From positions 1 to 33,512 of the forward strand of contig SVQK01000017.1 in the NCBI GenBank assembly GCA_015065385.1: a stretch of 33,512 bases of DNA. Direction: 5' to 3'. This document shows, one piece after another, positions 4,517 to 9,200 of the stretch. The notes under the pieces were generated by a model. That model saw nothing but the letters and a program-made list of their open reading frames with translations, was not told the origin of the DNA and made no database searches. A program made the translations under genes and the position numbers. Source of the DNA: Oscillospiraceae bacterium. Lineage in GTDB: Bacteria > Bacillota > Clostridia > Oscillospirales > CAG-272. Each line of letters begins with the position of its first letter. Positions within the stretch are counted from its first letter, which is position 1.

Positions 4517-6079
4517 TTACTTCCGGAACAGGATCCCGAACAGACCCTTGCGCAGGAGCTGGCCGCCGGTCGAAATCACCTGGCTTTCGAGCTTGGCCTT
4601 GATCCGCTCCTTCTTCTTGTCGGCGGCGGCTTTCTTCTTGGCCTCCTCCTTTTCCTTCTTCTCGGCCTCTTTCTGGGCGGCCTTTTCGGCTTCCCGGGCG
4701 GCCTTTTCCTTTTCGGCCTCGAGCTTCTTCCGCTCGGCTTCGAGCTCCGCCTTCTGACGCTCGATCTCGGCCAGCTCCGCCTTTTCCGCCGCTCTCTTTT
4801 CGAGCAGCTCGTACGCGCTCTCGTTGTCCACGGCCGTGTTGTACTTGTAGCCGAACTGGGACTGCGCGAGCACGCGGTTCTTCGTCGCCTCGGCGCAGGG
4901 AGCCATCAGGGACTGCGGGCAGATGATCGCGGTCTTCTCGACGATCTGCGGGATGCCCTTTTCATCGAGGAAGGAGGTCAGCGCCTCGCCGGTCCCGAGC
5001 TCCATGATCACGTCCTCGGTCTTGAACGCAGGATTGGCCCGGAAGGATTGCGCCGCCGTCCGGACCGCCTTCATCTCGGCGGGGGTGTAGGCCCGGAGCG
5101 CGTGCTGAACCCGGTTGGAGCACTGGGCGAGGACGGAGTCCGGAATGTCGGACGGGGACTGGGTGACGAAGTAGATGCCCACGCCCTTGGAGCGGATCAG
5201 CTTCACGGTCTGCTCGATCTTCTGGACGAGGGATCTCGGCGCGTCGGTGAACAAAAGGTGCGCTTCGTCGAAGAAGAATACGATGGTGGGCTTGTCCGGG
5301 TCGCCGACCTCGGGCAGGTTCTCGAAGAGCTCGGCCATCATCCAGAGCAGGAACGCCGCGTAGAGCTTCGGATATTTCACCGTCTCCACCGCGTGGAGCA
5401 GGTTGATCATGCCCTTGCCGTTCGCGTCGGTGCGGATCCAGTCCGTGACGTCCAGCATGGGCTCGCCGAAGAAGTCGTTGCCGCCCTGATTTTCAAGCGG
5501 GATCAGCGCGCGGGTGATCGCGGAGAGGGACTGCGGCGCCATGTTGCCATACTGCTGGGAGTACTCCGCGCGGTTCTCCGTGACGTACTGAATCATCGCG
5601 TGCAGGTCCTTCAGATCGATGATGGCCAGCCCGTGCTCGTCGGCGATGCGGAAGATGATGTTGAGAACGCCCTCCTGCACTTCGGTCAGGCCGAGGATGC
5701 GGGAAAGGATCTCGGGACCCATGTCGGACACCGTCGTCCGGATCGGAGTGCCGCCCCTGCCGTAAATGTCCCAGAACGCGACGGGATAGGGACGGTAGGT
5801 GAACGTGTCGCGGATGCCGAACTTGTCGATGCGCTTCTGCATGCCGGAACTGTCCGCGCCGGGTTCGCAGAGGCCGGAGACGTCGCCCTTCACGTCGCAG
5901 AGGAAGACCGGGACGCCTGCGTCGGAGAAGGATTCCGCCATGACCTTCATGGTGATGGTCTTGCCGGTGCCGGACGCGCCCGCGATGAGCCCGTGCCGGT
6001 TGGCCTGATTCAGGTACATGTAGACTTTTTCCTTCGCGGGATCGGAGAGGCCCATGTAAATCTTGCCGTTTTCGTACAT
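4517..6079 (-). CDS. HerA-like ATPase, DUF853 (YjgR) family
   Basis: This is a 520-residue P-loop ATPase of the HerA/FtsK superfamily, in the DUF853/helicase HerA-like group (E. coli YjgR type). The nucleotide site is clear: Walker A GASGTGKT at 34-41 and Walker B IVFFFDEAH with Asp271-Glu272. The sequence FVTQSPSDIPDSVL fits the sensor strand that follows. Residues about 420-500 are a Lys/Glu/Ala-rich coiled coil (KAELEAERKKLEAEKEKAAR type), and the protein ends with a short Gly/Leu/Phe-rich tail. There is no signal peptide, so it should be cytoplasmic. HerA relatives pump or process DNA, but the job of the DUF853 branch is not established. It has its own promoter (6128-6156) and an AAGGAG site, and is divergent from the T-box unit. 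Confidence 0.9.
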   Translation of the reverse strand: MYENGKIYMGLSDPAKEKVYMYLNQANRHGLIAGASGTGKTITMKVMAESFSDAGVPVFLCDVKGDVSGLCEPGADSSGMQKRIDKFGIRDTFTYRPYPVAFWDIYGRGGTPIRTTVSDMGPEILSRILGLTEVQEGVLNIIFRIADEHGLAIIDLKDLHAMIQYVTENRAEYSQQYGNMAPQSLSAITRALIPLENQGGNDFFGEPMLDVTDWIRTDANGKGMINLLHAVETVKYPKLYAAFLLWMMAELFENLPEVGDPDKPTIVFFFDEAHLLFTDAPRSLVQKIEQTVKLIRSKGVGIYFVTQSPSDIPDSVLAQCSNRVQHALRAYTPAEMKAVRTAAQSFRANPAFKTEDVIMELGTGEALTSFLDEKGIPQIVEKTAIICPQSLMAPCAEATKNRVLAQSQFGYKYNTAVDNESAYELLEKRAAEKAELAEIERQKAELEAERKKLEAEKEKAAREAEKAAQKEAEKKEKEEAKKKAAADKKKERIKAKLESQVISTGGQLLRKGLFGILFRK

Positions 6080-6428: not shown

Positions 6429-6457
6429 TTGACAATCCGGTTCGGACGCGGTATAAT
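6429..6457 (+). promoter_or_regulatory. Sigma-A type promoter of the T-box/acyl-CoA synthetase unit
   Basis: A perfect -35 TTGACA (6429-6434) and a perfect -10 TATAAT (6452-6457) have a 17-base spacer. Transcription should start near 6464, giving a leader of about 350 bases. Confidence 0.93.
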
Positions 6458-6463
6458 ACCTCC

Positions 6464-6774
6464 AATGGCAATGACGGAGAGGGCGGCTGCCGCCTTCGTC
6501 GCAGAGAATACGGCCGGAGGGATCGTCCCGCCGCGGTGGAAGCCGTAGACGAAGAGCAGCGCGCTGTAGCTCCCAAGCCGGAGGAAAGAAAGCGGAGGGA
6601 TCCACCTCTGTCAGTAGAATCCTCCCGTGACGGCTGCGTAAAGGTCTAAGGCTTGAAGGAGCCTGAGCGGCGTTCGTCCGGCGGCGAGCCGGCGCGCGCA
6701 ATTTGAGTGGTACCGCGGACAATTTCTGATTTTGTTCGTCTCAAAGCATTCATGGTCTTTGGGGCGGTTTTTTT
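6464..6774 (+). ncRNA. T-box riboswitch leader with terminator/antiterminator
   Basis: Stem I is visible: TTCGTC (6495-6500) pairs with GACGAA (6548-6553), TACGGC (6509-6514) with GCCGTA (6542-6547), with an AGAGAA bulge at 6503-6508 and the conserved distal GGTGGAAGCC at 6535-6544. The T-box core GAGTGGTACCGCGG is at 6705-6718. CTCAAA (6740-6745) can pair with TTTGAG (6702-6707) as antiterminator. It is also part of CGTCTCAAAG (6737-6746), which pairs with CTTTGGGGCG (6757-6766) followed by seven U residues as terminator. These two folds exclude each other, as expected for tRNA-sensing attenuation. The specifier codon lies around 6554-6572 but I cannot fix it; UGU, GUA and CUG are possible readings. 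Confidence 0.94.
6737..6774 (+). terminator. Intrinsic terminator of the T-box leader
   Basis: A 10-bp stem (6737-6746 with 6757-6766, some G-U pairs) is followed by TTTTTTT at 6768-6774. It lies 40 bases before the start codon of the downstream gene, and its 5' arm is shared with the antiterminator. Confidence 0.92.
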
Positions 6775-6814
6775 ATCGCCGAAGAGCCACACTCTGTGCA
6801 GGAGGAACAACACC

Positions 6815-9133
6815 ATGCAGACCAATCTGACGGGACTGGAATTCCAGATCCGCGACATGGCGGCCCGGATCGCCGAGCTGCGCGCCATCGAGGGCTACAC
6901 CGAGGAGGAAATGGCGCAGAAAACCGACGTCTCCGTGGAGGAATACCGGAGCAGCGAGCGCGGGGAGCGGAATCTCACCTTCGCGTTCATCTACCGGTGC
7001 GCGCTGGCGCTCGGCGTGGACGTGACGGATATCATCGAGGGCACGTCCCCCACGCTGGTCGGCCATACGGTCACGAGAAAGGGACAGGGGCAGATCATCG
7101 AGAAGGCCCACGGCATGACGTACCACTCCCTTGCCGGCGCGTTCAAGAACCGGATCTCCGAGCCGCTCTATGTGGTGGCGGAATACACCCCCGGAGCCGA
7201 GCGGCGCGATATCGAGCTGACCACCCACGAGGGGCAGGAGATCGATATCGTCATTAAGGGCGCGCTCAAGGTCCAGGTCGGCGGCCACAAGGAGATCCTC
7301 CGCGAAGGGGACAGCATCTATTACGACAGCGGCACGCCCCACGGCATGGTCGCGGTGGACGGGGAGGACTGCACCTTCTACGCCATCGTCCTCAATCCCG
7401 CGAGGGACTCCAAGGGCGACGCGGATCTGCCGGAATTCTCCCGCAAGCTCATCGAGGCCTCCGGTCCCGCGCCCGAGATCCCGCTCACCGAGGAACGGAT
7501 CTACCGCCGCTATACCAAGGTGGAAAAGGACGCCAACCGCACGCCGGTCAAGATCACCTTCAAAAACACCGAGACCTTCAACTTCGCCTTCGATCTGGTG
7601 GACGAGCTCGGAAAGAAGAAGCCCGACAAGCTGGCGATGCTCTGGGTTTCCGGGGACGGGGAGACCGAAAAGCGGTTCACCTTCGCCGATATGTCCCGCC
7701 TGTCGAACCAGTGCGCGAACTATTTCACCTCCCTCGGGATCAGAAAGGGAGACCGGGTCATGCTCGTGCTCAAGCGGCACTGGCAGTTCTGGTGCGCGAT
7801 GCTGGGCCTGAACAAGCTCGGTGCGATCGCCATTCCCGCCGTCAACCAGCTTTTGTCCCATGACTTCGAATACCGTCTGAACGCGGCGGGCATCACGGCC
7901 TGCCTCTGCACCGCAGACGGGGACACCGCCCATCAGCTGGATATGGCCGCGGAGAAATGCGATGTCTTGAAGACGAAGATCCTCGTCAACGGACAGCGGG
8001 AGGGCTGGCACGACTTCAACGCGGAGTACACCCTCTTCTCCGACCGGTACGAGCGGACGGCGGACAGCCCCTGCGGCGACGATCCCCTGCTCATGTACTT
8101 CACCTCCGGTACGACCGGATATCCGAAGATCGCCGTCCACAACCACAAGTATCCCCTCGGCCACTTCCACACGGCGAAATACTGGCACTGCGTGGACTCC
8201 TCCGACACGGGCCTCCACTTCACCATCTCCGACACCGGCTGGGCGAAGGCCATGTGGGGCAAGCTCTACGGTCAGTGGCTCTCCGAGGCGGCGACCTTCG
8301 TCTACGACTTCGACCGGTTCGACGCCGCGAAGATCCTGCCGATGTTCAAGAAGTACGGCATCACCACCTTCTGCGCGCCGCCCACCATGTACCGCATGCT
8401 CATCAAGGAGGATCTGTCGAAATACGACTTCTCGAGCCTCAAGCATGCCACCACCGCGGGCGAGGCCCTGAACCCGGAGGTCTACCGGAAGTTCGAGGAG
8501 ATCACGGGGCTGCAGATCATGGAGGGCTTCGGACAGAGCGAGTCCACCTGCATGATCGGCAACCTGATCGGCGCGCCGCACAAGCTCGGCTCGATGGGCA
8601 AGCCCTGCCCGATCTACGATATCCACCTTCTGACGCCCGACGGGGAAGAGGCCGCGGTCGGCGAGAGCGGCGAGATCTGCGTCAACGTGAAGGACGGCGC
8701 GCCCTGCGGCCTGTTCACGGGTTACTACAAGGATCCCGAAAAGACGGAGGAGGTCTGGCACGACGGGTTCTACCACACCGGCGACCTCGCGTGGCGCGAC
8801 GAGGACGGCTTCTTCTGGTATGTGGGCCGGATCGACGACGTCATCAAGTCCTCCGGCTACCGGATCGGCCCGTTTGAGATCGAGAACGTCATCATGGAAC
8901 TGCCCTATGTGCTCGAATGCGGCGTCTCCGCGGCCCCGGACGAGATCCGCGGCCAGGTCGTCAAGGCGTCCATTGTCCTGACGAAGGGCACCGAGGGCAC
9001 GGAAGAGCTGAAAAAAGAGATCCAGAACTACGTCAAGAAGAACACCGCGCCGTACAAATACCCCCGGATTGTCGTCTTCCGCGACGAGCTCCCGAAGACC
9101 ACCAGCGGAAAGATCATGAGGAGCAAGCTGTAA
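6815..9133 (+). CDS. HTH-cupin-acyl-CoA synthetase (AMP-forming) fusion
   Basis: I start at ATG 6815 because AGGAGG (6800-6805) precedes it and the longer frame from 6707 would begin inside the T-box; this gives 772 residues. Residues about 10-75 are an XRE-type helix-turn-helix (AELRAIEGYTEEEMAQKT, VEEYRSSERGERNL). Residues about 105-195 are a cupin (HEGQEIDIVIKGALKVQVGG, GDSIYYDSGTPHGMV). From about 225 onward is an ANL-family acyl-CoA synthetase with YFTSGTTGYPK at 428-438, EGFGQSES, YHTGDLAWRDEDGF, the hinge KSSGYRIGPFEIE and the catalytic lysine in PKTTSGK (Lys766). The pattern is closest to medium-chain/aryl acyl-CoA synthetases: acid + ATP + CoA gives acyl-CoA + AMP + PPi. The substrate cannot be read from sequence. 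The HTH and cupin may sense a ligand or control the enzyme's own expression (inference). Two terminators follow. Confidence 0.92.
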   Translation: MQTNLTGLEFQIRDMAARIAELRAIEGYTEEEMAQKTDVSVEEYRSSERGERNLTFAFIYRCALALGVDVTDIIEGTSPTLVGHTVTRKGQGQIIEKAHGMTYHSLAGAFKNRISEPLYVVAEYTPGAERRDIELTTHEGQEIDIVIKGALKVQVGGHKEILREGDSIYYDSGTPHGMVAVDGEDCTFYAIVLNPARDSKGDADLPEFSRKLIEASGPAPEIPLTEERIYRRYTKVEKDANRTPVKITFKNTETFNFAFDLVDELGKKKPDKLAMLWVSGDGETEKRFTFADMSRLSNQCANYFTSLGIRKGDRVMLVLKRHWQFWCAMLGLNKLGAIAIPAVNQLLSHDFEYRLNAAGITACLCTADGDTAHQLDMAAEKCDVLKTKILVNGQREGWHDFNAEYTLFSDRYERTADSPCGDDPLLMYFTSGTTGYPKIAVHNHKYPLGHFHTAKYWHCVDSSDTGLHFTISDTGWAKAMWGKLYGQWLSEAATFVYDFDRFDAAKILPMFKKYGITTFCAPPTMYRMLIKEDLSKYDFSSLKHATTAGEALNPEVYRKFEEITGLQIMEGFGQSESTCMIGNLIGAPHKLGSMGKPCPIYDIHLLTPDGEEAAVGESGEICVNVKDGAPCGLFTGYYKDPEKTEEVWHDGFYHTGDLAWRDEDGFFWYVGRIDDVIKSSGYRIGPFEIENVIMELPYVLECGVSAAPDEIRGQVVKASIVLTKGTEGTEELKKEIQNYVKKNTAPYKYPRIVVFRDELPKTTSGKIMRSKL

Positions 9134-9138
9134 GGGGA

Positions 9139-9162
9139 GCAAATGCTCTGCATTTGCGTTTT
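9139..9162 (+). terminator. Intrinsic terminator after the acyl-CoA synthetase gene
   Basis: GCAAATGC-TCT-GCATTTGC forms a perfect 8-bp stem with a three-base loop, followed by GTTTTT. It begins 6 bases after the stop codon. Confidence 0.9.
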
Positions 9163-9200
9163 TCCTCCGCCGACCGGTCAGGAATGACCGTCGGCTTTTT
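9163..9200 (+). terminator. Second terminator; diverged copy of the dispersed hairpin element
   Basis: GCCGA plus CGGTCA (9169-9180) pairs with TGACCG plus TCGGC (9185-9195) around a GGAA loop, with one bulged C, then TTTTT. It begins with the same tcctccgccg as copies at 4391 and 30841. One stem pair differs on both sides (G-C becomes C-G), so pairing is kept. Confidence 0.85.

Follow-up and report, generated by a model that had tools for sequence, protein, structure and literature searches.

A T-box leader with a valine specifier, and the acyl-CoA synthetase that it probably controls for valine synthesis from isobutyrate, in an Oscillospiraceae bacterium

A complete transcriptional T-box is located at positions 6462–6774 of the analyzed window, a stretch of 33,512 nucleotides that spans the full length of contig G000:C4. 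The contig belongs to a draft genome of 4.3 Mb, with 94% completeness, from an uncultured gut bacterium of the Clostridia. The T-box precedes a gene for an acyl-CoA synthetase, and we consider it likely that it senses tRNA-Val and controls the activation of isobutyrate for valine synthesis. The relevant features of the window are the following:

6429–6457, plus strand: sigma-70 promoter TTGACA-17-TATAAT (consensus match at 12/12 positions)
6462–6774, plus strand: T-box leader RNA, Stem I through the U-tract of the terminator (RF00230 end to end; covariation in 35 relatives)
6467–6579, plus strand: Stem I (base formed by GGC 6467–6469 and GCC 6577–6579)
6476–6479 and 6570–6573, plus strand: specifier helix of Stem I (GGAG/CTCC)
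6503–6508 and 6535–6539, plus strand: apical motifs of Stem I (AGAGAA and GGTGG)
6566–6568, plus strand: specifier read as GUA (valine), followed by a purine (G6569); position set by the covarying helix
6702–6745, plus strand: antiterminator, with the T-box bulge UGGU at 6708–6711
6737–6774, plus strand: competing intrinsic terminator with a 10-pair stem and U7 (z −3.5; helix 6 of the covariation test)
6815–9133, plus strand: HTH-cupin-acyl-CoA synthetase fusion, 772 aa (Pfam; 634 bits to 3etc)
6869–7030, plus strand: HTH_3 domain, aa 19–72 (28.3 bits, cut-off 23)
7211–7387, plus strand: Cupin_2 domain, aa 133–191 (50.6 bits, cut-off 27.2)
7610–8728, plus strand: AMP-binding domain PF00501, aa 266–638 (214.9 bits, cut-off 29.9)
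8876–9112, plus strand: AMP-binding C-terminal domain PF13193, aa 688–766 (75.8 bits, cut-off 24.5)
9139–9199, plus strand: terminator-like stems 3′ of the gene (similar sites are not rarer in shuffles, 3 versus a mean of 2.4)

The first-pass annotation had described a promoter, a Stem I with the AGAGAA bulge and GGTGGAAGCC, the T-box core GAGTGGTACCGCGG, and a mutually exclusive antiterminator and terminator, and all of these elements were recovered. The GGTGGAAGCC motif occupies 6535–6544 and the core occupies 6705–6718. The antiterminator is closed by TTTGAG (6702–6707) and CTCAAA (6740–6745), and the strands of the terminator (6737–6746 and 6757–6766) form 10 pairs that are followed by seven T. 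CTCAAA is common to both structures, which are alternative folds that exclude each other. The terminator fold was better than chance (z −3.5, none of 200 shuffles as good), and the antiterminator alone was not clearly above it (z −1.55, 13 of 200 shuffles as good). Folding of the entire leader by itself gave a z of −2.1, with 3 of 100 shuffles as good, and in single-sequence folding its minimum-energy structure differed from the T-box fold. A six-helix structure with 37 pairs was 98.6% paired across 35 valine-type leaders, with compensatory changes in 23 of the 37 pairs (mean of 14.5 in shuffles, none of 500 as high). Versions with slid partners reached 4–11, a comparison that favors the 37-pair structure because it was predicted from the very alignment that was tested. 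The same 35 leaders contained 48 further pair types, a number that was reached by 45 of 500 shuffles. The comparative evidence lends strong support to the predicted structure of the leader, and single-sequence folding lends it weak support.

A scan with the Rfam T-box model, which had been proposed earlier as a check, aligned RF00230 over its full length at 6462–6746, with 34.8 bits and an E-value of 3.3e-6. This is below the gathering score of 93, which is a database threshold and not a feature of the RNA; a search at that score found no match anywhere in the window and retrieved one of 20 relative loci. Among the 11 T-box matches in the genome, two passed the cut-off and nine missed it. The leaders that precede thrS, pheS, and ileS of the same genome (genes named by eye from their translated products) scored 37.6, 35.8, and 31.7 bits, respectively, and because these synthetase leaders also score low, the low score goes with the lineage. 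Two nearly identical T-box leaders are located at the starts of contigs C1 and C86 of this genome (L005 and L006), with a transport ATPase ORF near L005.

The specifier was read as GUA, a valine codon, at 6566–6568. The next base, G, lies directly 5′ of the CTCC strand (6570–6573) of the specifier helix (helix 2 of the covariation test), which is 100% paired with compensatory changes in three of its four pairs, so the codon ends one base before a covarying helix. Frames of the specifier loop that would correspond to leucine, cysteine, or alanine were ruled out, as only the GUA frame was kept and synonymously varied in relatives. Among the best 30 typed loci of 48 tRNA matches, the genome contains tRNA-Val(UAC) with discriminator A, which the UGGU bulge fits, as expected of a T-box; the leader would bind this tRNA. 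The genome also has a tRNA-Val(CAC). On contig C2 of the same genome, a T-box read as GUG-A (L001) precedes a P-loop kinase and a valyl-tRNA synthetase-like ORF. Given this reading and the presence of tRNA-Val(CAC), the two valine leaders may use different tRNAs.

The same arrangement recurs in relatives. Among the 146 genomes of the family to which this one belongs, 100 have a match to the gene at E 1e-100, and 85, by a list compiled by hand, hold the HTH-cupin fusion. Loci were picked for their likeness to the window protein (30 first loci, 40 selected regions, L012, and the best 80 matches of a further scan) and yielded 212 genes, 192 after identical fragments were merged and 186 after six with less than 450 nt upstream were dropped. 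The best 80 named relatives are, according to database records, mostly uncultured Clostridia, many from the rumen or hindgut of ruminants. The T-box core was found upstream of 163 of the 186 fusion genes; the 23 without it include members of tandem pairs. Of the 163 specifiers, 160 read by script and three by eye, 92 were valine (GUA, GUC, or GUG) and 71 isoleucine (AUC); no other type, including leucine, was found in these leaders. The closest named relative among the best 80, 90% identical, carries GUC. A valine specifier is expected to change synonymously, and the GUA/GUC/GUG variation agrees with this. Figures given for TBDB put GUA at 61% of valine and AUC at 99% of isoleucine specifiers (PMC7778990).

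The clades of the enzyme match the specifiers. In a FastTree phylogeny of 184 proteins, from which two isoleucine genes were left off as too short, the specifier label changes three times over 161 labeled proteins. One branch (support 100) separates 91 valine genes and one isoleucine gene (L079) from the rest, which comprises a single valine gene (L080) among 68 isoleucine genes. Of the 55 loci that hold two such genes, 42 have the isoleucine type first and the valine type no more than 1 kb behind it. The genome that contains the window has one of each type, the window gene and a paralog on contig C94 (L012) that reads AUC. Among 20 loci with unfused or split homologs (L096–L115), the core was absent from 18, and a core match in L104 was rejected as it is located away from the homolog. 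In L099 (genome G029, core at 4841), a T-box with GUA read by eye lies ∼85 nt upstream of an HTH-cupin/ligase homolog that is 43% identical and split by a stop.

The product of the window gene had been annotated as an acyl-CoA synthetase, a description borne out by both domains of AMP-forming acyl-CoA synthetases (PF00501 and PF13193), which exceed their curated cut-offs; the N-terminal HTH and cupin encoded by the same ORF had been missed. In the cupin, residues H138, E142, and H176 do not vary across 12 aligned members; they may correspond to the kind of metal site found in HTH-cupin enzymes such as HppE. Among solved structures, the closest is 3etc, the medium-chain acyl-CoA synthetase of Methanosarcina acetivorans (MacsMa; 634 bits over aa 252–770), for which a preference for 2-methylbutyrate is reported in PMC10455477. 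The best NCBIfam match is MbcS (NF047394), with 438.8 bits against an equivalog cut-off of 850, so the window protein is not filed as MbcS. The terminator-like stems at 9139–9199 lie behind the gene, which is therefore probably monocistronic here. At the contig edge, positions 1–300 of the window contain Pro-Asp-rich tandem repeats within a long minus-strand ORF.

Many relatives carry, directly behind the gene and on its strand, genes for a P-loop protein, a ferredoxin, VorB, VorA, and VorC (for example, L061, 8831–14452). VorB was found within 1.4 kb behind 36 of the 66 valine-type genes with 2.5 kb downstream and at 1.4–8 kb from nine; it was not seen behind the other 21. For the 66 isoleucine-type genes, the corresponding numbers are 3, 46, and 17. 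The conserved P-loop protein (GHYGSGKTN) that lies between the ligase and VOR genes (L061:11140–11805 and L092:5793–6482) has no Pfam or NCBIfam match.

In lists compiled by hand, the genomes with valine-type genes, assigned by an identity of 66% or more to the window protein and not by a specifier read in each, contained VorB in 40 of 40 cases and ketol-acid reductoisomerase (KARI) in three of 40, one of the three belonging to the genus of the window. This set includes G060, in which the gene is partial, and excludes G093 because its leader reads AUC. Genomes with a fusion gene that is not of the valine type contained VorB in 41 of 45 and KARI in 21 of 45 cases, and genomes with no fusion contained them in five and 40 of 61, so KARI is missing from 21 of the latter. 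The contrast between valine-type genes and KARI persists when counted by genus (p 0.0007), a comparison in which relatedness is only partly controlled. Eight genera hold both kinds of genome: in five, valine-type members are without KARI and the other members have it (in one of these, g1, this applies to two of three valine-type members), three show no difference, and none shows the reverse.

A search for vor/ior genes, suggested in the first-pass annotation, found both in the genome of the window. VorB (NF005507) is present with 547.1 bits (cut-off 399) at L092:4429–5487; this VOR cluster is located on a different contig from the window gene, and that contig has no T-box match. The IOR alpha subunit and a branched-chain aminotransferase also exceed their cut-offs. 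An HMGL protein beside IOR scores below every model listed. Neither KARI (IlvC) nor IlvD/Edd has a match in the genome; these absences are not proof, as the genome is a 94%-complete draft. A weak match to acetolactate synthase was rejected as IolD. The salvage of an acid, as originally proposed, is supported by a valine specifier, the presence of VOR, its frequent position directly behind the gene in relatives, and two classical valine-pathway enzymes without a match. Neither of the outcomes named in the first-pass annotation as refutations arose: the T-box model aligned to the leader, although below the curated Rfam score, and the specifier designates an amino acid that has an acyl-CoA precursor.

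From gene content and linkage, we infer that the substrate is isobutyrate and that VOR acts in the reductive direction. Of the branched-chain and aryl acids listed as candidates in the first-pass annotation, isobutyrate would be kept and the others set aside; isobutyryl-CoA is the acyl-CoA precursor of the amino acid that the specifier designates. In the proposed mechanism, valine shortage would leave tRNA-Val(UAC) uncharged. Base pairing of its anticodon to the specifier, GUA, and of its free ACCA terminus to the UGGU bulge would let the antiterminator form, allowing read-through and transcription of the gene. The fusion enzyme is predicted to convert isobutyrate to isobutyryl-CoA, which VOR would carboxylate with reduced ferredoxin to 2-oxoisovalerate, and the branched-chain aminotransferase would convert this to valine. 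In addition, 2-oxoisovalerate may be a source of leucine by way of a LeuA-like enzyme. The paralog with the AUC specifier would lead from 2-methylbutyrate to isoleucine in the same way. Isobutyrate and 2-methylbutyrate are described as the respective precursors of valine and isoleucine in the rumen in PMC7356843, which cites earlier work. Several observations count against this reading: the 21 valine-type genes behind which VorB was not seen, the location of VOR on a separate contig in the genome of the window, the score below the MbcS cut-off, the three valine-type genomes that have KARI, and the 21 genomes that have neither the fusion nor KARI.

A further T-box of this genome (L013, contig C106) has a tyrosine specifier, UAC, and precedes an acyl-CoA ligase without HTH or cupin (L013:5638–7272). 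Related ligases are present in 69 of the 146 genomes. Of 30 loci with such ligases, 17 have the core, each of them reading UAC, and IOR alpha follows the ligase on the same strand in five of the 30 (1.5 kb downstream covered). This suggests that the L013 branch makes tyrosine from an aryl acid, for example 4-hydroxyphenylacetate.

Three other explanations were weighed against valine synthesis from isobutyrate. The acyl-CoA could serve as a FabH primer for branched-chain fatty acids, with the T-box sensing valine and isoleucine as the usual sources of primers. MbcS is the nearest NCBIfam model, and the Staphylococcus aureus enzyme activates 2-methylbutyrate and isobutyrate for fatty acid synthesis, as described in PMC10026030; however, VOR directly behind 36 of 66 valine-type genes and the distribution of VorB and KARI in valine-type genomes point to amino acid supply, and we regard a fatty acid role in its place as improbable. 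The two fates could coexist.

VOR is reversible in principle, which would allow the genes to serve valine breakdown, with VOR acting oxidatively, the acyl-CoA being converted to the acid, and the link to the T-box being incidental. A T-box turns genes on at amino acid shortage, which is the wrong sign for breakdown, and the association is repeated across 163 leaders, whose two kinds of specifier match, so this explanation seems to us very improbable. We give equally little credence to a misread specifier, with the leader sensing another tRNA, such as that for leucine or cysteine, in a shifted frame. The enlarged apex of Stem I in this leader and the low Rfam score could be taken in its favor, but the codon is anchored one base 5′ of the covarying helix, the clade of the window has only valine codons there (save the isoleucine gene L079), the 90% identical relative differs by a synonymous change, and UGGU fits the discriminator base.

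Valine synthesis from isobutyrate under a valine-specific T-box, the reading that we prefer, combines elements that are known separately. The leader shares with class I transcriptional T-boxes (RF00230, TBDB) the Stem I specifier loop and apical motifs, the Stem II/III helices, the UGGN bulge, and the competition between antiterminator and terminator. It differs in that its clade falls mostly below the Rfam cut-off and in its target, acid activation for reductive carboxylation, whereas the usual targets are synthetases, transporters, or standard biosynthetic genes. The window protein differs from MacsMa, its nearest solved relative, in the HTH and cupin at its N-terminus and in its T-box control. 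Among NCBIfam families it most resembles MbcS, but it falls below the cut-off of that family, and MbcS of S. aureus serves fatty acid synthesis. The predicted chemistry is that of carboxylation in rumen anaerobes; the present proposal adds a defined set of genes and their control by tRNA. Both T-boxes and the chemistry are known; their pairing appears to be new. Among the papers listed in searches of an open-access library, none by its title or abstract joined a T-box with an acyl-CoA synthetase or CoA ligase, isobutyrate, reductive carboxylation, or a ferredoxin oxidoreductase. The main text of a T-box survey (PMC2494555) does not contain the whole words CoA, acyl, or ferredoxin and mentions 54 targets of unknown function.

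A broader proposal, which we regard as evenly balanced between right and wrong, is that acid rescue in gut Clostridia is organized as a T-box regulon. Valine, isoleucine, and tyrosine would each have a T-box in charge of a separate acid:CoA ligase, with VOR or IOR as the partner of the ligase, and an uncharged tRNA would thereby directly order isobutyrate, 2-methylbutyrate, or an aryl acid to be converted to the missing amino acid. In the branched-chain ligases, the HTH-cupin part may be a built-in regulator that lets one polypeptide activate the acid and also act as its sensor at DNA. That branched-chain volatile fatty acids are amino acid precursors in rumen microbes is an old finding; the activating genes and the switch are the proposed additions. 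If the reading is correct, T-boxes would have salvage by reductive carboxylation among their targets, substrates could be assigned with the specifier codon as a guide to acyl-CoA synthetases for which sequence alone does not suffice, and a dependence of gut Clostridia on isobutyrate or 2-methylbutyrate could be predicted from their genomes.
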